From IMG/VR virus record IMGVR_UViG_3300025886_000156, positions 1-24,141 of that record: a stretch of 24,141 nt of DNA; one strand, 5' to 3'. Positions 12,876-21,819 of the stretch are shown here, one piece after another. Below the pieces are notes generated by a model, which saw only the letters and a program-made list of their open reading frames with translations, ran no database searches and was not told the DNA's origin. The position numbers and the translations under genes are program-made. Position 1 is the stretch's first letter; the number at the start of each line of letters is the position of its first letter. Source of the stretch: a virus.

Positions 12876-15800
12876 ATGGCAGAGTTTGTACATAGTTTCC
12901 AAAGAGGGAGAATGAACAAAGACCTTGACGAACGTTTAGTTCCGAATGGAGAATATAGAGATGCTCTAAATTTAGATTTAGCAAATTCAGACGCAAGTGA
13001 CGTTGGAGCTATGCAAAATATTGCAGGCACAATACAATTGCGTTCAAAAGTAGGTACGGGAGCAACTTGGACAGGTGGTTATATAGACGCTATGACAAAC
13101 CCTGTTTGTATTGGATCTTATAGAGATGATATAAATGAAAGAATATATTGGTTTATAGCAAGTGATGGCATTAGTGCTATTGCTGAATACGACCAAGTTA
13201 AAAACGAGGTTAGCCCTATTTTAGTAGACACCGCGGGTATTTTAAATTTTTCTGCTGATTATTTGATTACAGGTATAAACATACTTGACAAGTTTTTGTT
13301 TTGGACAGACGATCAAACTGAACCAAAGAAAATTAACGTTGAAAAGTTTAAAACGGGTTCTACTGATTTTGTTACTCAAACTAAAATTCCTAAATGGGAT
13401 GCCGTTCAAAATAACTATAATACAAATTTATCAGGTCAGCCAGATTTTGTAGAAGCAGATGTTACTGTTATAAAACTATCCCCATTAGATGCCCCTACTT
13501 TTACTGCAGCAGATTCTAAATTTGGCAATGATATTATTGGAACTGGTAATACGCCGGCAACAACCAGGTTTAATTATATTGATTTATATAATTTTACCTA
13601 CATTCCAGATTTGATATCTTTTCCATCACGATTTACTGCTTATCCTACATATGGCGAATATTTGGAACAGATAGAATCTGGCGGCGACTATCTTGATAGT
13701 TCTTTTAATGACTCTGTTAACAACCCTAACTATGATGCTACCTATGGGTGGAACGGGTTAGTAACTTTTATTACAGATCAATTAGTCACTGTTTGGGACA
13801 CTGTAGATAATGATATAGTAACACTTAAAGCAGAATTTAATAATCAATTTGGTCAAATTGAAAACTACGCGTTACAAATAAAAATAACGCAAATAAATAA
13901 CACAGAAATAACAGGTCAAATACAAGCTATATCTACTGATATAATTAGAAACATAGACGCTGAAGGCGTTAGTACACCTCTGCAATGGGAAGCTGTCTTA
14001 CAAGAAAAAGACCCTATGTTTGAATATGTGTTCCCTAGGTTTGCGTATAGATGGAAGTACATAGATAATGAGTACTCTTGTTTTTCACCTTTTTCAGAGG
14101 TTGCTTTTATTGGAGACGAATTTGAATATATTTCTTCTAATGGGTATAATGTAGGCATGACTAATAATATTAGAAAACTTGCAATAGAATCTTTACAATG
14201 GGGTTCCGAAGAGGTTGATGAACTTGATATACTATATAAAGAATCAAACAGCACAGCTGTATATGTTGTAGACACTTTAAAGCTGCAGGATTTTGTTCCA
14301 TACACCTTAACGCCTTTACCTACTTCTTATAAAATCAATACTGAGTTAATTACAAAATTAGTTGAATCTAACCAAATATTAAGACCGTGGGATAATGTTC
14401 CGCGTAAAGCTAAATCTCAAGAAATAATTGGCAACAGAGTAGTTTATGGTAATTACTTACAAAACTACACACTGAATAACACAATTAAGCTAGGCTTAAC
14501 ATTGTTTTCTAATGTTCACCCTGGAACACTGCCTTCTGAAATTGATCCCGCTACTGAGATTGGAATTCCAAATCCAAATACAAGAATGCCTTACAAGTCT
14601 TTAAAGTCTATACGAACCTACCAGCTAGGAGTATTATTTAAAGATCAATATGGAAGGGAAACACCCATATTTACTAGTGAAGAATCCGGCTTGCAAATAG
14701 ACGTAAATGAAGCTTCTTTTGTAACGCAATTACAAGCCTCTCCTATTTCCTTACCTCCTTTTCCTGAGGCAACGCATTATAAGTTTTTTGTAAAAGAAAC
14801 TGCAACCGAATATTACAATTTAGCTTTAGATAGATTTTACTTAGCAGAGGACGGCAATGTTTGGCTTTCTTTTCCTTCATCTGAAAGAAATAAAGTTGAC
14901 GAAGAAACTTATTTAATACTTAAAAAGCAGCACGACAATAATATTCCTGTAACTACTGCGAATAGATACAAGATACTATCAATAGCAAATGAAGCACCTG
15001 ATTTTATATCAAGATTCGACGCCTTCATTGCATCATCTTCTGTTACACTACTTAATGAAATAGAACCTGGTTTTTTACAAATTAAATTTACAGGGCCAGA
15101 TAATCAAACCAATTCTAATTTTAGAGAAAACTTGAACTCCTCTGCTAAAATAGCTATAAATTTTTCAGGACAAAGCACTCAGAAATATGATTTACAATCT
15201 GCTGAAATTAGCGGTACCAATGGAACAACTTATACATTAAAACTTGAAAATGCTTTAGGAGCTGAAGTTCCTGTAATTCCAGATGGAACTACTAATGTAA
15301 TTATAGAAATTTACCAAGAAGAAACTAAAAATTTACCAGAATTTGAAGGTAGATTCTTTGCTAAAATAAACAGAAACTTTGGTTTTGACACAAATATTAT
15401 ATCTTCTTTTAAAGCTTTAAAAACGCAATATGCAGTTAAAGATGAAATAGACTTTGAAAGAGCGTTGCAACCTGAAACTAACGGAGCAGGGGTTCCTAGC
15501 GGTTATTACTATGGAGACAATGGCAGTAGAGATGTGAAAAATGATGTTGGGGGGGATCAACTATGCAACGGTCGTGCTGGCGAAAGATATTTAAGAGGAG
15601 GCAATGGCTGGGGAGGCGCTGGTTCCGGCGTGCAAGCATTCCTTAGCGACGGCTATCAGCCTCCTACTAATGGCTCTAATGTTTTTGGCTTTCAGTATTT
15701 GGATTCTCCATTAAATGGACTCATAGATGATATGGTAGGAACCACGCCTGATATGTGGGGGAGTCGTACACCTCTTAGTGGTTACATAGCTCCAGGAGCT

Positions 15801-18800
15801 AGTATTAGGTTTAAATTTAAAGACGGATCTTATTCTAATATATATACAGTAGACCAATCTTTTGGTAGAGTTACATATAGGGGCGCAGAAGCAGTGAAGG
15901 TAACATGGCACGGGTTTCCTCCTATCCCAAGATTTAATTGTAGAGATAGAAACGCACAGTGGAATTATAGATATGGCTGTACGATTACTCTTAAAGAACA
16001 ATTAAACGAGCCTTTAATGCCAAACGCAGGGGATTGGGAACACCTTCAAGATGTATTGCCTAGCGTACAAGTAGTTGAACCAATAACCAGCGATAACAAC
16101 AAGCTTTTATCTTCTTCAAACCCAGCTATATTTGAAACAGAGCCTAAAGAATCTGTTGATTTAAACTTGTTTTATGAGGCAAGCAACGCTATTCCAATAG
16201 CAGATTACAATACACCTAATCAATTAATAAACTGGTTTAACTGCTACTCGTATGGAACAGGGGTTGAATCAAACAGGATTAGAGATGACTACAACGCAGT
16301 ATATATAGATAAAGGGCCTAAAGTTTCAACCGTACTGGACGAACCTTACGCAGCTGAACGAAGAGGTAGCGGCTTTATATTTTCGCAAATATATAACTCT
16401 ACATCGGGTATAAATAGATTAAACCAATTTATACAAGCAGAACCTATCACAAAGGATCTTAATCCTATATATGGAACAATACAGAAATTACATGCTCGTG
16501 ACACTGATTTAATATCTTTATGTGAGGACAAATGCTTACGTGTGTTAGCTAATAAGGACGCTTTATACAACGCCGATGGTAATTCTAATGTAACATCTAA
16601 TCAATCGGTATTAGGGCAAGCTGTGCCTTATGCAGGTGAATTTGGCATATCTAAAAACCCAGAGTCTTTTTCTTCTTATGGATTTAGAGCATATTTTACA
16701 GACAAGAATAGAGGTGCAGTAATAAGGCTTTCAGTAGACGGTATTACAAATATCGCTGATAAAGGAATGGCTGGATTCTTTGCAGATAACTTAAGAACCA
16801 CTACAACAGCTGTGGGAAGTTACGACGATGACAAAGACATATACAACCTTACTCTAAATAACCTATCTAACTACTGGCAGAAAAGACTTAGTCTTGACGC
16901 TAATTATCAATTAGATCCCGATTGCGAGGACGCACCAACAAGTTTAGTACCAAATACTACAATATCATTTAAAGAAAGTGTAGATGGGTGGACTAGTAGA
17001 AAAGACTTTATACAAGAGTCCGGTATTACATTAAACAATTTGTATTATACATTTAAAAATGGTTTAATATGGATACATGGAGCTAATTCTGTATATAACA
17101 ACTTCTATGGAATACAATACGATAGTTCATTTAACGTTTTAATAAATGAACAACCGCAAGTGGTTAAAGGGTACAGTACTTTAAATTACACAGGCACCGC
17201 TTCCAGGATTTTTGAATACCAAAGCGGCAATAAGTGGTACTCTATTGCGGAAATTAACGCTAATCAAATAACACCTACAGCTTCACAGCTTAAAAAGCAC
17301 GGCTGGTACACTAGCTTTGTTAGAACAGATCTTGAAGCTGGTGAAATTAAAGAATTTCAAAAGAAAGAAGGGAAGTATTTTAATTACATAAAAGGTACTT
17401 TAATTGGCTGCGAGCCTGATACAGGAGGTATTGGACCTTGCTTGGATTGTGGTGAAACACCTCAAGATTACTTGTTAACTGTTACTATTGACGAAACTTG
17501 TAGCAGCTCTGGTTCTCCAACTCCAGATACTGATTTTGAAGGATGGTACCAGTGGAATGCTAAAGGTCTAAGCTCTTCAATATTAGAAGCACCAACTGCT
17601 CAAGATGCTAAATGTATTATAGACGATTTTTATGCTTATGTAAACGGAGGCTACAGCTCGGTAACTTCAATAAATTATAATCAATTTAAGTACGTATTTT
17701 CAGACGGTATATCTGTAGGAACTCAAATATACGATAAAGATACTTTGCAGCCTATAACTGAAGCAGGCACTTATTTGTGGATAAAACCTCCGCCAATAGG
17801 GATTGCACCAGACAGCCCTTCTTTAGATTCTAATAACCCGACTATAGTACCTAATACATATTTTATAGTTATATGGGGATCAGACGGAGTTATTACATCT
17901 GTTACACCATATAGTTCTCTTACAGTATGCCAAACGCCCCCAGATACTTATTGGGCTATGTGGACTACTTTCCAAGTTGTAACAGAAGAAACGGGGTCGC
18001 ATGTAGAAACCTTAGCTAATTATTCTAATGCTTTAGATAGTAAGTGTGCGCTTGAGGATTTATATCAGTTAACTGTTGATGAAACAGCAACGGGAGGCTT
18101 CCAAGGTGGAATAGGATTTTATTTTTATAGCAATATTGGCTTTGGAGTAGGCACACAGCTTTACGATCGGGATGATCTTTCACTGCCTCTTAATAGCCCT
18201 GGAGCTCACTTATTAGTAAGGCCACCGGCAGAGAATAGTTTAAACGATGACGTTTTTATACGAGATAATGGCGTATCTGCCCCGGATTCTTACGAAATAG
18301 TAATTGTAGGTAGCAATGGAGTGGTAGAATCCATAACACAATATAACACTATTACAGGATCTTGTTCCGAGGACCCTTACGAGCCCGTAGAAGGCCAAGA
18401 CTTTAGGTTTATAGCTAAAAAAAGTGCGTCTCCATATTTTGGGCTGTTCGATGACACCTTAACAGAAGTGAGTTCTCCTTATACATTTGCACCTGTGCCT
18501 AATTCCTCTACCTCAGCTGTAGCTAAAGTAAGCGACAATTACACCTATATACTAACGGCGGGATTGTTTGGTCCTGAAGTAGTCCATTTATCAACTAATA
18601 ATGGCGAAAGCTGGGGTGCTTTGCCTTTTTCTAGTACCGTAAATGAGGTGCATATTTCCAAATCTGGTCAAGTTATTATTGTTGAAAGCGGGGGATATAA
18701 TAACCCTTTAATTGAAGTTTCAAATAATTTTGGAGGTAGTTTTACAACTTTTAATTTAAATAACATAATTACGCTAGGAACATCTATTCCTGTTATAAGC

Positions 18801-19385
18801 AGGGTAGCATTGTCTTCGGGAGGTAAATTTATAACGATAAGCGTCATTGGTGTTTCAGGCATTACGTTTGGCGATAATAATAACCGCATATTAAAAAGTA
18901 GTGATTATGGGGTTAGCTTTAGTGACATAACCGACAACGTAGGCTTTCCTTCTATAGGAGCTATGTATGACGTTAGTATTCAGGACGCTTTAATATCAGG
19001 AGATGGTAAATATGAAATATATTTTAATTCTTCAGGTGCATCTAGATATTCTGACGACTATGGCGAAACGTTTATTGATAAAAATTATCAACAAACCGAT
19101 TGGAATGAAAATGGTCAAATAAGCGAAAGTGGAAAATATTTTATGATAACAGGTATTAATTTTGAAGGCTCTTATTCAACGGATTTTGGAGTTTCAAATA
19201 CGCTGTCAACTATTCCTACAGCTTCACAACAGTACTTAGGCGTGAGCAGTTCAGGAGAATTTTCTTTTGCTTCGGGAACTTTAGCTAATAGCTTGCTGTA
19301 CAGTGATGATTTCTTTGTTACATTTACGCCTATTGGGCCGGTAGCAAATGTTTCTAAACCTTTTATATTAGTAGACGTAAGTTAA
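12876..19385 (+). CDS. giant tail stabilisation/muzzle-like protein with C-terminal repeats and Asp-box propeller
   Basis: This 2169-aa virion protein begins FQRGRMNKDLDERLVPNGEY, then RDALN and SDASDVGAMQNIAGT, a signature of large tail nozzle or stabilisation proteins in marine and crAss-like phages. A second conserved block near residues 1205-1335 contains SNQSVLGQAVPYAGEFGISK, NPESF, TDKNRGAVIRLSVDGITNIA and GSYDDDKDIYNLTL. Between them lies a Gly-rich segment (about 870-925) encoded by locally GC-richer DNA with a G7 run at 15549-15555. After about residue 1480 come two tandem Cys-containing beta domains (1556-1685 and 1696-1830), then a propeller-like domain with six Asp-box motifs (about 1838-2169). 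The conserved part would close the tail tube; the C-terminal domains probably point outward and may bind host surface glycans. No sialidase catalytic set is visible. Confidence 0.8.
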   Translation: MAEFVHSFQRGRMNKDLDERLVPNGEYRDALNLDLANSDASDVGAMQNIAGTIQLRSKVGTGATWTGGYIDAMTNPVCIGSYRDDINERIYWFIASDGISAIAEYDQVKNEVSPILVDTAGILNFSADYLITGINILDKFLFWTDDQTEPKKINVEKFKTGSTDFVTQTKIPKWDAVQNNYNTNLSGQPDFVEADVTVIKLSPLDAPTFTAADSKFGNDIIGTGNTPATTRFNYIDLYNFTYIPDLISFPSRFTAYPTYGEYLEQIESGGDYLDSSFNDSVNNPNYDATYGWNGLVTFITDQLVTVWDTVDNDIVTLKAEFNNQFGQIENYALQIKITQINNTEITGQIQAISTDIIRNIDAEGVSTPLQWEAVLQEKDPMFEYVFPRFAYRWKYIDNEYSCFSPFSEVAFIGDEFEYISSNGYNVGMTNNIRKLAIESLQWGSEEVDELDILYKESNSTAVYVVDTLKLQDFVPYTLTPLPTSYKINTELITKLVESNQILRPWDNVPRKAKSQEIIGNRVVYGNYLQNYTLNNTIKLGLTLFSNVHPGTLPSEIDPATEIGIPNPNTRMPYKSLKSIRTYQLGVLFKDQYGRETPIFTSEESGLQIDVNEASFVTQLQASPISLPPFPEATHYKFFVKETATEYYNLALDRFYLAEDGNVWLSFPSSERNKVDEETYLILKKQHDNNIPVTTANRYKILSIANEAPDFISRFDAFIASSSVTLLNEIEPGFLQIKFTGPDNQTNSNFRENLNSSAKIAINFSGQSTQKYDLQSAEISGTNGTTYTLKLENALGAEVPVIPDGTTNVIIEIYQEETKNLPEFEGRFFAKINRNFGFDTNIISSFKALKTQYAVKDEIDFERALQPETNGAGVPSGYYYGDNGSRDVKNDVGGDQLCNGRAGERYLRGGNGWGGAGSGVQAFLSDGYQPPTNGSNVFGFQYLDSPLNGLIDDMVGTTPDMWGSRTPLSGYIAPGASIRFKFKDGSYSNIYTVDQSFGRVTYRGAEAVKVTWHGFPPIPRFNCRDRNAQWNYRYGCTITLKEQLNEPLMPNAGDWEHLQDVLPSVQVVEPITSDNNKLLSSSNPAIFETEPKESVDLNLFYEASNAIPIADYNTPNQLINWFNCYSYGTGVESNRIRDDYNAVYIDKGPKVSTVLDEPYAAERRGSGFIFSQIYNSTSGINRLNQFIQAEPITKDLNPIYGTIQKLHARDTDLISLCEDKCLRVLANKDALYNADGNSNVTSNQSVLGQAVPYAGEFGISKNPESFSSYGFRAYFTDKNRGAVIRLSVDGITNIADKGMAGFFADNLRTTTTAVGSYDDDKDIYNLTLNNLSNYWQKRLSLDANYQLDPDCEDAPTSLVPNTTISFKESVDGWTSRKDFIQESGITLNNLYYTFKNGLIWIHGANSVYNNFYGIQYDSSFNVLINEQPQVVKGYSTLNYTGTASRIFEYQSGNKWYSIAEINANQITPTASQLKKHGWYTSFVRTDLEAGEIKEFQKKEGKYFNYIKGTLIGCEPDTGGIGPCLDCGETPQDYLLTVTIDETCSSSGSPTPDTDFEGWYQWNAKGLSSSILEAPTAQDAKCIIDDFYAYVNGGYSSVTSINYNQFKYVFSDGISVGTQIYDKDTLQPITEAGTYLWIKPPPIGIAPDSPSLDSNNPTIVPNTYFIVIWGSDGVITSVTPYSSLTVCQTPPDTYWAMWTTFQVVTEETGSHVETLANYSNALDSKCALEDLYQLTVDETATGGFQGGIGFYFYSNIGFGVGTQLYDRDDLSLPLNSPGAHLLVRPPAENSLNDDVFIRDNGVSAPDSYEIVIVGSNGVVESITQYNTITGSCSEDPYEPVEGQDFRFIAKKSASPYFGLFDDTLTEVSSPYTFAPVPNSSTSAVAKVSDNYTYILTAGLFGPEVVHLSTNNGESWGALPFSSTVNEVHISKSGQVIIVESGGYNNPLIEVSNNFGGSFTTFNLNNIITLGTSIPVISRVALSSGGKFITISVIGVSGITFGDNNNRILKSSDYGVSFSDITDNVGFPSIGAMYDVSIQDALISGDGKYEIYFNSSGASRYSDDYGETFIDKNYQQTDWNENGQISESGKYFMITGINFEGSYSTDFGVSNTLSTIPTASQQYLGVSSSGEFSFASGTLANSLLYSDDFFVTFTPIGPVANVSKPFILVDVS
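17541..17930 (+). repeat. tandem Cys beta domain, copy A
   Basis: This segment encodes residues 1556-1685 of the giant tail protein and is homologous to copy B directly after it. Shared positions include D[AS]KC..[DE]D.Y, G[IF].VGTQ[IL]YD[KR]D, [IV][KR]PP, and P[ND][TS]Y.IVI.GS[DN]GV[IV].S[VI]T.Y...T..C. Confidence 0.75.
17961..18365 (+). repeat. tandem Cys beta domain, copy B
   Basis: This segment encodes residues 1696-1830 of the giant tail protein. It is colinear with copy A over its full length, with the same start (DSKCALEDLY) and final Cys. The nucleotide sequences have diverged, so the duplication is not recent. Confidence 0.75.
18591..19325 (+). repeat. six Asp-box-like repeats (beta-propeller)
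   Basis: Six motifs of the form S-x-[DN]-[DNYF]-[GF]-x-[ST]-[FW] are spaced about 40-60 residues apart in the giant tail protein: STNNGESW (S1906), SNNFGGSF (S1949), SSDYGVSF (about 2009), SDDYGETF (S2059), STDFGVSN (S2101) and SDDFFVTF (S2143). The last two are degraded. Lines such as ISKSGQ, LSSGGK, ISGDGK, ISESGK and VSSSGE recur between them, as expected for propeller blades. Confidence 0.7.
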
Positions 19386-19417
19386 AATAAATAAAAATAA
19401 TTTAATAATAAATAAAT

Positions 19418-21472
19418 ATGCCTAGTTTTAACAATTATACATTTACAGATATTCAGTATACTATACCGGAAGGAAGTAATGTTTCTATATTATACCCAAC
19501 AGCTCAAATAACAATTGTACCAAATGAAGGTTATACAGCAGTCGCTGCGGATTTTTCGTTAGACTCTAGCTTTTCTGACAATGCAGTACAATCTGTTGTT
19601 TTTACTCAAGATGGTTTAAACGTGCTTTGTACTGTAACCTTTGATACAGGATTTGTAATGCCGTCAGGTAATTACACAATACCATTATGTGTTGTTGGAG
19701 AAGGAGGCGTAAGTCTTATTACTATAGATGGAACATTCATTGCCAACGTAGGACCTAATATTTCAGGAGATGTAAACGAATCTGTTCCTTATACAAACTC
19801 AGGAAGTGTTGGAGAACTTGAATTGCTTTTTACTAAAAATTATACAGCTAATGCCGGCTATTACTTAACTTCAACTGGACTTCAAGTTGTTACAGGCAAT
19901 GCGTCTAATTACAATATAGTTCAAGGGACTGTTTATGATGGGGATAACAATTTAACAGGTATTAGTTATGCCGTTAATTATTTATATCCTAATCAAAGCA
20001 TTGATGGTGATACATTACGGATTAATCAAGTTTCAGCTAAAGAAATATATGTAGCCCCTCCTGCTCCTGTTGTAACAGGCTATGGGTTTTTACCAACCAG
20101 CGTCTCCCCTAAAGGTACTACAATAAGAAATTGGGAAATAAGCGGTGAAATAGGCGCAACATTCTCTATTGTGATGACCAGTCAATCTGGGGGCTCATGG
20201 AATTTAGCTACTAATCAAGTTATTCCAGCTACAGGGAGTACTATTTTGAATGTACCCTTTCCTGCTATTGTTGGAATGGCTAATGAAGAGATCTACACAA
20301 TTACATTTTCCGGTGGCATAGACCCTGCTTTAATAAACCCAATAATTATGTACCAATTTACTGCTTTACCTAGAATCGCATTTACAGGCTCGTCAATTAA
20401 TGGCATAACGGGTTACACTCCTGTAACAACGGAAAGGACCGCACTCACTAGATTAGTTGAAGACTCCAATTTAATAACTATTGAATGGGATATATCAACA
20501 CCAGACGGTTTATTGCAATATCCTAATACCGTAAATAGAACTACCATTACAAACATGGATCCCGTGCTAGCTACTGAAAACACATCCGCGGTCACAAATA
20601 GCACTTCTTTAGATTTAAACTCCACTACCGGCCTTGCTGCAGGGGATAAATTTAATTTACCAACAACTTCTTTTGGAGAAAATGATTCCGGGTATGCTCC
20701 TTTCCAGTATGAGGTAACAGCTGTTAATTCATCTACTAATATAACTATTTCCCCAGCTATATCAATGCTAGAAGATAATAGAATAATTTTTTGGAAAAAT
20801 AGCGGGAACGTATCTACTATCAATAGTACATCATACACTCCTGCTACAGATTCATCTGGTAAATTAACATTAGTATTTGACGTTACTGGCTATGGGGATG
20901 CAGATTCAATATTTATTATTGATTTAGACACTATATTTAATTTTGTGCCAAACTTAGCTTGCGGATCAGCTGCTATTAGCGGTGGTGAAGGCATAACAGA
21001 CTATTCTTTAGACTTAGATCCAACAGGAGGTGTTGTAGCGTTTTTAGTTAATGGACAAGGTTTACCTGATAAGTTTGAAATATTCCACGGCTTACCTTTT
21101 GCTAATGATAAAAAAGCAACATCCGGCATGGTGGCATCTGAAAACTTTGGGCCATTTGAAAACAATTTTGGCACATCCCCACTGAATGCAATACCAACTT
21201 CATCACAGCTAAATTCAGATCAATTCATAGGATCTGATAAATACGCACCCTTGCCGTTTGCTCCAAGCAGAACTTCAGAATTTAACTCAGACACAGGATT
21301 TACTATACCAAGTATGACCGTAGGTGGAACAACTTATCAACAGGTTGTTTGGTGGCAATACACAGCAGCCGATTATACTAGTAATCCAAATGCAACAATA
21401 AGAATAACAGGCCCGACAGGTACTGGGTGGGATGCTTTAAGACTATGCTGCCCTGATGGAAATTGTACTTAA
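19418..21472 (+). CDS. fibre-like virion protein with Ig-like repeats and C-terminal adhesin module
   Basis: This 684-aa protein is beta-rich, Ser/Thr/Asn-rich and poor in basic residues, with no signal or membrane segment. The first about 220 residues look like two related Ig-like units: NEGYTAVAADFSLD...VVFTQDG...VTFDTGFVMPSGNYTI, then KNYTANAGYYLTS with a similar tail. A further Ig-like stretch (about 225-320, GYGFLPTSVSPKGTT onward) and another beta region follow. Residues 515-677 are the module also found alone at 1095-1622. This N-terminal-stalk, C-terminal-head layout fits a tail fibre, head fibre or other host-recognition protein. It lies between the giant tail protein and a small conserved virion protein. 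The leader is very A-rich (AATAATAAATAAAT-ATG). Confidence 0.7.
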   Translation: MPSFNNYTFTDIQYTIPEGSNVSILYPTAQITIVPNEGYTAVAADFSLDSSFSDNAVQSVVFTQDGLNVLCTVTFDTGFVMPSGNYTIPLCVVGEGGVSLITIDGTFIANVGPNISGDVNESVPYTNSGSVGELELLFTKNYTANAGYYLTSTGLQVVTGNASNYNIVQGTVYDGDNNLTGISYAVNYLYPNQSIDGDTLRINQVSAKEIYVAPPAPVVTGYGFLPTSVSPKGTTIRNWEISGEIGATFSIVMTSQSGGSWNLATNQVIPATGSTILNVPFPAIVGMANEEIYTITFSGGIDPALINPIIMYQFTALPRIAFTGSSINGITGYTPVTTERTALTRLVEDSNLITIEWDISTPDGLLQYPNTVNRTTITNMDPVLATENTSAVTNSTSLDLNSTTGLAAGDKFNLPTTSFGENDSGYAPFQYEVTAVNSSTNITISPAISMLEDNRIIFWKNSGNVSTINSTSYTPATDSSGKLTLVFDVTGYGDADSIFIIDLDTIFNFVPNLACGSAAISGGEGITDYSLDLDPTGGVVAFLVNGQGLPDKFEIFHGLPFANDKKATSGMVASENFGPFENNFGTSPLNAIPTSSQLNSDQFIGSDKYAPLPFAPSRTSEFNSDTGFTIPSMTVGGTTYQQVVWWQYTAADYTSNPNATIRITGPTGTGWDALRLCCPDGNCT
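20960..21451 (+). repeat. paralogous adhesin module, copy 2 (fused C-terminus)
   Basis: This segment encodes residues 515-678 of the 684-aa protein and matches the stand-alone protein at 1158-1619 from Cys to Cys. It carries about 10 extra residues before the VVWWQYTAADY block. The DNA is still partly alignable (for example around the GLPDKFEIFHG codons), so the copies share ancestry. Confidence 0.75.
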
Positions 21473-21489
21473 AATAAAAATATAAAAAT

Positions 21490-21819
21490 ATGGCAAATCT
21501 AACAATGACATTTTCAAACCCCTTGCCTGACGGGATTCAAGTAGGGGATATTGCTTGGTACCTAAACACAACTACAAATGATGAATTTGAAATGGGGCCA
21601 ATAATTGCAATAACAAATAACCCTGTATCTATAACTATAGACTTAGCTGCAGGTGTACCCCCACCAACGTCTAGTGATTTCATTTTTTATGTTGAAGATC
21701 CAATTGGGCATTTAGGGCAATTAAAAGGATATTACGCCGAAGCACAATTTAGAAATGATTCAACAAGCTATGCTGAACTATTCTCCGTTGGGTCAGAGAT
21801 ATTTGAGAGCAGTAAATAA
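21490..21819 (+). CDS. small conserved virion-type protein
   Basis: This 109-aa protein is beta-rich. It begins MTFSNPLPDGIQVGDIAWYL, continues FEMGPIIAITNNPVSITIDL, and ends LKGYYAEAQFRNDSTSYAEL then FSVGSEIFESSK. The C-terminal pattern GYYAE..F.N.S...AELF.VGSE[IV]..SSK recurs in small proteins next to tail genes of marine phages as I recall them, and suggests a structural component. Its exact role is unknown to me. It follows the fibre-like gene after a 17-bp leader of AAAATAAAAATATAAAAAT type. Confidence 0.65.
   Translation: MANLTMTFSNPLPDGIQVGDIAWYLNTTTNDEFEMGPIIAITNNPVSITIDLAAGVPPPTSSDFIFYVEDPIGHLGQLKGYYAEAQFRNDSTSYAELFSVGSEIFESSK

Follow-up and report, generated by a model that had tools for sequence, protein, structure and literature searches.

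A variable C-terminal cassette on a crassvirus-type tail muzzle protein as a candidate surface-binding module

The window analyzed here, one viral contig of 24,141 bases from a marine-type phage, encodes a holin, a GroES-like gene, a terminase, a portal, structural genes and a protein of 2169 amino acids (aa). The question raised by this locus is what the C-terminal end of that long protein carries and what it may do on the virion. The ORF (12876-19385; on the plus strand, as are its parts described below and the next gene) was present as given in the original prediction, which had described a nozzle-type protein with added C-terminal domains, and our analysis agrees with that description. The whole protein matched phrog_14478 (E = 6.6e-128), and its core (residues 1-1507, 12876..17396) is homologous to gp97 of Cellulophaga phage phi38:1 and to proteins of the Flavobacterium elemo phages. 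These homologues are annotated as structural proteins, which bears on the location of the muzzle in the virion. Among the conserved domains of the body, crAss_MUZ_C (Pfam PF25729; residues 1406-1507, 17091..17396) comes last. It scored 26.1 bits in the window muzzle (E = 1.1e-5), just under the cut-off of 27, was clearly over the cut-off in the homologues phi38:1 gp97 (67.9 bits) and elemoC, and reached 97.3 bits in crAss001 gp44. The main crAss_MUZ model (PF25731) had no match at E ≤ 1 in the window muzzle and likewise none in the phi38:1 and elemo proteins; hence, the window muzzle is a crassvirus-type protein of a related but diverged group outside the curated family. PDB sequence searches with the window protein and with a muzzle profile yielded no matches. 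The gene order terminase, portal, structural proteins and muzzle matches that of phi38:1, and the muzzle and its neighborhood also match the elemo phages and one spring-water contig, the terminase of which is 62% identical to that of the window. Judged by homology and gene order, the ORF is a crassvirus-type tail muzzle, kin to those of Cellulophaga phi38:1 (Pervagoviridae) and the Flavobacterium elemo phages.

The phi38:1 and elemo proteins are homologous to the window muzzle throughout the body (about 28-37% per block), and these phages share the same gene order from GroES/terminase to the muzzle and the genes beyond. They differ in ending ~120 aa past MUZ_C without a Cys domain or propeller, and no gene of the "d684" type (see below) separates their muzzle from the conserved genes that come next. 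The likeness to crAss001 gp44 lies in the position within the structural block directly after the ring and tail proteins, in PF25729, and in the proposed role as a channel gate (PMC10172136). In contrast to the window protein, gp44 has no cassette, with ~40 aa following MUZ_C (1244-1333 of 1371); a further difference is that the window protein is not matched by the main crAss_MUZ model PF25731. The muzzle is divided over more than one gene or ORF in two relatives: in the isolated Maribacter phage Panino (L070:3998-7911) the homologue is annotated as two genes of 946 and 320 aa with ~110 bp between them, and at L053:8001-13522 it is broken into five ORFs, which may reflect frameshifts, pseudogenes or assembly errors.

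According to the tail sequences and their alignment, the body is followed by a linker together with the final strand of the core (residues 1508-1543, PQDYLLTVTIDETC; 17397..17504), and it is at about these residues that short-tailed relatives such as L017 end. The original prediction had let the conserved body extend to about residue 1480, which is close to the end of MUZ_C at 1507; within that body, however, residues 721-1075 (15036-16100) are as variable as the C-terminal cassette (28-80% identity among relatives). This hypervariable stretch may correspond to exposed insertions of the crass domain. The cassette ends at 19385 as had been proposed, whereas its start lies at about 17505 (residue 1544) and not at 17541.

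The cassette begins with two diverged copies of an alpha/beta domain of ~145 aa with a Cys at its end, located directly in tandem at residues 1544-1689 (17505..17942) and 1690-1834 (17943..18377). That two such copies exist had been proposed before, and several analyses bear this out. The copies are 33% identical (when the ORF set was searched, E was about 1e-12), and a single HMM built from relatives picks up both, copy 1 at 1e-55 and copy 2 at 3e-33. AlphaFold2 predicted the identical order of strands and helices twice, with block pLDDT mostly between 78 and 94. Nine aligned copies share two invariant Cys, which copy 1 has at positions 1580 and 1685 and copy 2 at the corresponding positions. 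At the level of sequence, this duplication is far beyond chance. Among the ORFs of the relatives' loci, the HMM found the domain confined to muzzles. Comparison of the Cys domains with solved folds revealed no relative at E ≤ 0.001, the PHROG search gave no match at E ≤ 0.01, and the one fold match was to an uncharacterised viral model (E = 3.4e-4). The Cys domain thus appears to be a family absent from Pfam and PHROGs.

The remainder of the protein (residues 1841-2169, ~329 residues, which with the stop codon span 18396..19385) contains six Asp-box repeats, in line with the original prediction. Boxes 1 to 4 read STNNGESW (18591..18614), SNNFGGSF (18720..18743), SSDYGVSF (18897..18920) and SDDYGETF (19050..19073). 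The fifth, STDFGVSN (19176..19199), and the sixth, SDDFFVTF (19302..19325), are degenerate. The boxes start at residues 1906, 1949, 2008, 2059, 2101 and 2143, at a spacing of 42-59 residues, and the repeated unit comprises about 42-61 residues. A loose Asp-box pattern was found six times versus 0.26 times expected, and none of 20,000 shuffled sequences reached six; the strict pattern S-x-[DN]-x-G-x-[ST]-[WF] occurred four times versus 0.012 expected. The shuffles rule out chance motifs, and the number of repeats is far beyond chance as a property of the sequence. In leave-one-out repeat profiles, each of the repeats 2-6 ranked above 995 or more of the 999 shuffles. The first repeat was weak, with 69 of 999 shuffles equally good. 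The Asp boxes are kept in L002 and L012, two relatives of which one is 72% and the other 60% identical. A sequencing artefact was ruled out, as the reading frame and 60-72% identity are kept in three independent contigs.

A propeller fold of the six-repeat region is likely on these grounds, given the Asp-box repeats together with a weak VPS10/BNR match of the L002 homologue. The latter matched Sortilin-Vps10 (PF15902) at 8.4e-7 over 135 residues with 28.6 bits (cut-off 33) and BNR at 2.6e-5 with 24 bits, compared with 14.9 bits for the window region (cut-off 27); its BNR_3 match reached only E = 0.1. When a three-row profile of the putative propeller was used, solved sortilins were the top sequence hits (E = 0.026, non-significant). 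The Asp-box repeats are the feature shared with sortilin/VPS10 and BNR propellers. VPS10 propellers have ten blades, however, as compared with six or seven putative blades in the window protein, and the matches stay under the curated cut-offs. The structure prediction that had been suggested as a check gave a mixed picture: it was confident for the Cys domains, whereas AlphaFold2 of the propeller region alone, run with a three-sequence alignment, reached a mean pLDDT of 34. Homologues of the propeller region were searched for in viral contigs with single-sequence and alignment queries, and among the matches listed only L002 and L012 were recovered. None were found in genome contigs, and matches in phages were at chance level. 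The propeller-bearing relatives are all metagenomic, and the C-terminus of the window muzzle matched nothing at E ≤ 1 among 50,697 phage records. Pattern-based scans may overlook diverged propeller copies, and the single-sequence scan missed L002.

The comparison of muzzle tails across relatives relied on 137 viral-contig loci (denoted by L numbers) obtained by scans with short peptide patterns that took in up to 80 loci, in two sets that partly overlap so that some contigs are represented twice; the muzzle pattern itself was matched in at least 599 stretches. Trees were built on distinct muzzle cores only. After MUZ_C these loci carry nothing, one, two or three Cys domains, Cys domains plus the propeller (the window, L002, and L012, the last without Cys copy 2), Cys plus DUF285 (L025), Ig-like domains (L106 and L134), a fused copy of the protein that is the product of the next gene in the window, or other sequences. 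Among 88 distinct cores, 38 had short tails, 21 two Cys domains, nine one and a single core three, with "short" and "one Cys" slightly overcounted owing to a few truncated contigs. The remainder comprised three cores with the propeller, six with a fused neighbor and ten with other long tails. The propeller is thus rare (3 of 88), and Cys domains, Ig-like domains and the fused neighbor are alternatives at the same site. We counted 21 changes of cassette state over the 88 cores and at least 14 over 43 cores when suspect rows were removed. A well-supported tree separates L012 from the window and L002, and supported branches force at least two changes. At L025:11083-12279, DUF285 (3.4e-26), an unusual companion of a phage tail channel protein, occupies the place of the second module together with a weak PKD-like match, and at L122:11303-16015 the muzzle continues for ~1570 residues beyond MUZ_C with no recognized domains.

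The clearest case of propeller presence and absence is the pair formed by the window and L005. Aligned blastn blocks join window 12876-18350 to L005 8001-13475 and window 19407 onward to L005 13505 onward; hence, 18351..19406 of the window is replaced by 29 bp in L005. DNA identity is 84% in the part of the muzzle that precedes the propeller and 76% beyond the propeller, and at the protein level the body is 80-96% and the Cys domains are 83-87% identical, with the propeller absent from L005. Identity to the window muzzle across relatives ranges from 63 to 93% in segment 1076-1405, versus from absent to 87% in the cassette, and Cys copy 2 retains 20-40% in most relatives. In L001, the body is 77-95% identical, as compared with 58% for Cys copy 1 and 33% for copy 2. 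The opposite was observed in L032, where Cys copy 1 is 86% identical on a body of 42-78%, which suggests that this domain was exchanged horizontally between lineages. The C-terminal additions therefore vary on a body that is in large part conserved, which was the comparison suggested as a check, and strict conservation of the C-terminus was not seen.

The gene downstream of the muzzle, d684 (19418..21472, 684 aa), is separate in the window and in most relatives. At seven loci (L086, L089, L104, L118, L123, L126 and L140), HMM hits place the d684 protein inside the muzzle ORF, in frame at its C-terminus, and blastp aligned d684 with residues 1388-1776 of the L104 protein (2.8e-14). The next ORF in the fused genomes is the homologue of window 21490-21819. 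Five fused genomes were checked, and in these the conserved gene that comes next begins 5-11 bp past the fused muzzle, so the fusion is clean. This arrangement indicates that the muzzle and the d684 protein act at the same place.

These observations can be read in several ways. The main rival to the explanation we prefer is that the cassette serves as an adaptor, which docks a separate fiber or the d684 protein onto the muzzle and does not itself touch the host. In the nozzle of phage SU10, a loop on propeller blade 1 docks the short fiber (PMC9509320), and in the fused relatives d684 sits exactly at the cassette site. Furthermore, the muzzles without Cys domains in L017, L020, L021, L031 and L048 are followed by a longer next gene of about 855 aa (split into 269 + 592 in L017). 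We nevertheless regard an adaptor as unlikely because presence of the propeller is not linked to the kind of next gene: L005 lacks the propeller and has a 76% identical next protein of 687 aa, whereas L012 bears the propeller and has a next protein of 768 aa with 41% identity. For a docking part, one would also expect stronger conservation than the 20-40% identity of Cys copy 2. The C-terminal additions could instead be a general decoration of the virion, conferring stability or adhesion to particles or mucilage without any role in host choice. The Ig-like modules and those of the DUF285 type that take this site in other muzzles are common generic adhesion or decoration modules, and the variation of the cassette also fits a structural or decorative role. 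Yet the quick turnover among close relatives and the exchange across lineages look more like receptor binding than structure, and we consider pure decoration improbable.

Sialidases and the glycosidases related to them typically contain Asp boxes, which would favor a catalytic propeller that cleaves glycans and clears surface polysaccharide, and certain Arg residues do not vary among the three copies of the region. Two of these invariant Arg sit just before Asp boxes, however, and Arg at this position is common without catalysis. The original prediction had noted no sialidase pattern, and consistently no sialidase or glycoside hydrolase family of NCBIfam or Pfam was matched beyond the Asp-box repeats; the best weak matches were to Sortilin-Vps10 and bare BNR repeats. 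An active sialidase was rejected for want of a family match, and a cleaving propeller is the least probable of the readings, very unlikely in our judgment.

With moderate confidence, we favor the explanation that the muzzle C-terminus serves as an attachment site for a cassette of surface-binding domains that can be exchanged. Fast turnover and exchange favor recognition over a structural role. The window cassette would consist of two phage-specific, Cys-ended alpha/beta domains followed by an Asp-box propeller, and if the muzzle is hexameric as in crAss001, each virion would display six of these cassettes around its tail. The muzzle of crAss001 is hexameric and located at the end of the tail, a loop of its internal propeller serves as the gate, and the crass domain, which lies distally, was proposed to touch the cell surface; length variation was described within the crass and IG2 regions, not as C-terminal modules (PMC10172136). 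Orientation of the C-terminus toward the host is not guaranteed, as the platform domain on the barrel side of the SU10 nozzle is built from both the N- and the C-terminal part of the protein chain (PMC9509320). If the window muzzle is arranged likewise, its cassette would be attached at the proximal rim, away from the distal gate or tip, projecting outward and adding host-surface binding capacity to a muzzle that presumably shuts the tail channel. Its domains would most likely provide a secondary, non-cleaving contact with glycans or proteins on the host surface, and phages may tune host recognition by gain, loss, duplication and swap of modules at this site. The originally proposed coupling of recognition to tail opening found no support, given the barrel-side platform of SU10; a direct link between cassette and gate opening is possible. 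A further reading is that modular host recognition in this large marine phage group centers mainly on the muzzle C-terminus, with interchangeable lectin-like modules covalently joined to the channel-gating protein and binding through six cassettes directly triggering opening; this appears rather improbable to us.

A partial parallel is offered by the BACON domains of crAssphage, which are likewise tandem, duplicating, fast-evolving domains of a carbohydrate-binding type that a Bacteroidota phage carries on a tail protein, but represent a different domain and are annotated on tail spike proteins and not at a muzzle C-terminus (PMC10136315). Gating is the known role of crassvirus-type muzzles, and contact with the surface has been ascribed to the crass domain. 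The cassette points to a second recognition element besides the tail fibers, and a swappable C-terminus with neighbor fusions is a candidate for how crassvirus-type phages change hosts. The window and L005, with and without the propeller, provide a ready natural comparison.

The d684 protein may be a further module of the same kind acting at the same place, covalently joined to the muzzle in some relatives and separate in others. At L017:12449-15057 the next gene is found in two ORFs, possibly owing to frameshifts, pseudogenes or assembly errors. In the window, a small ORF near the holin (1095-1622) shares a domain of ~165 aa with the C-terminal end of d684 (residues 513-677; 42% identity, E = 2e-37), and the same tip-like domain is thus used twice in one phage.
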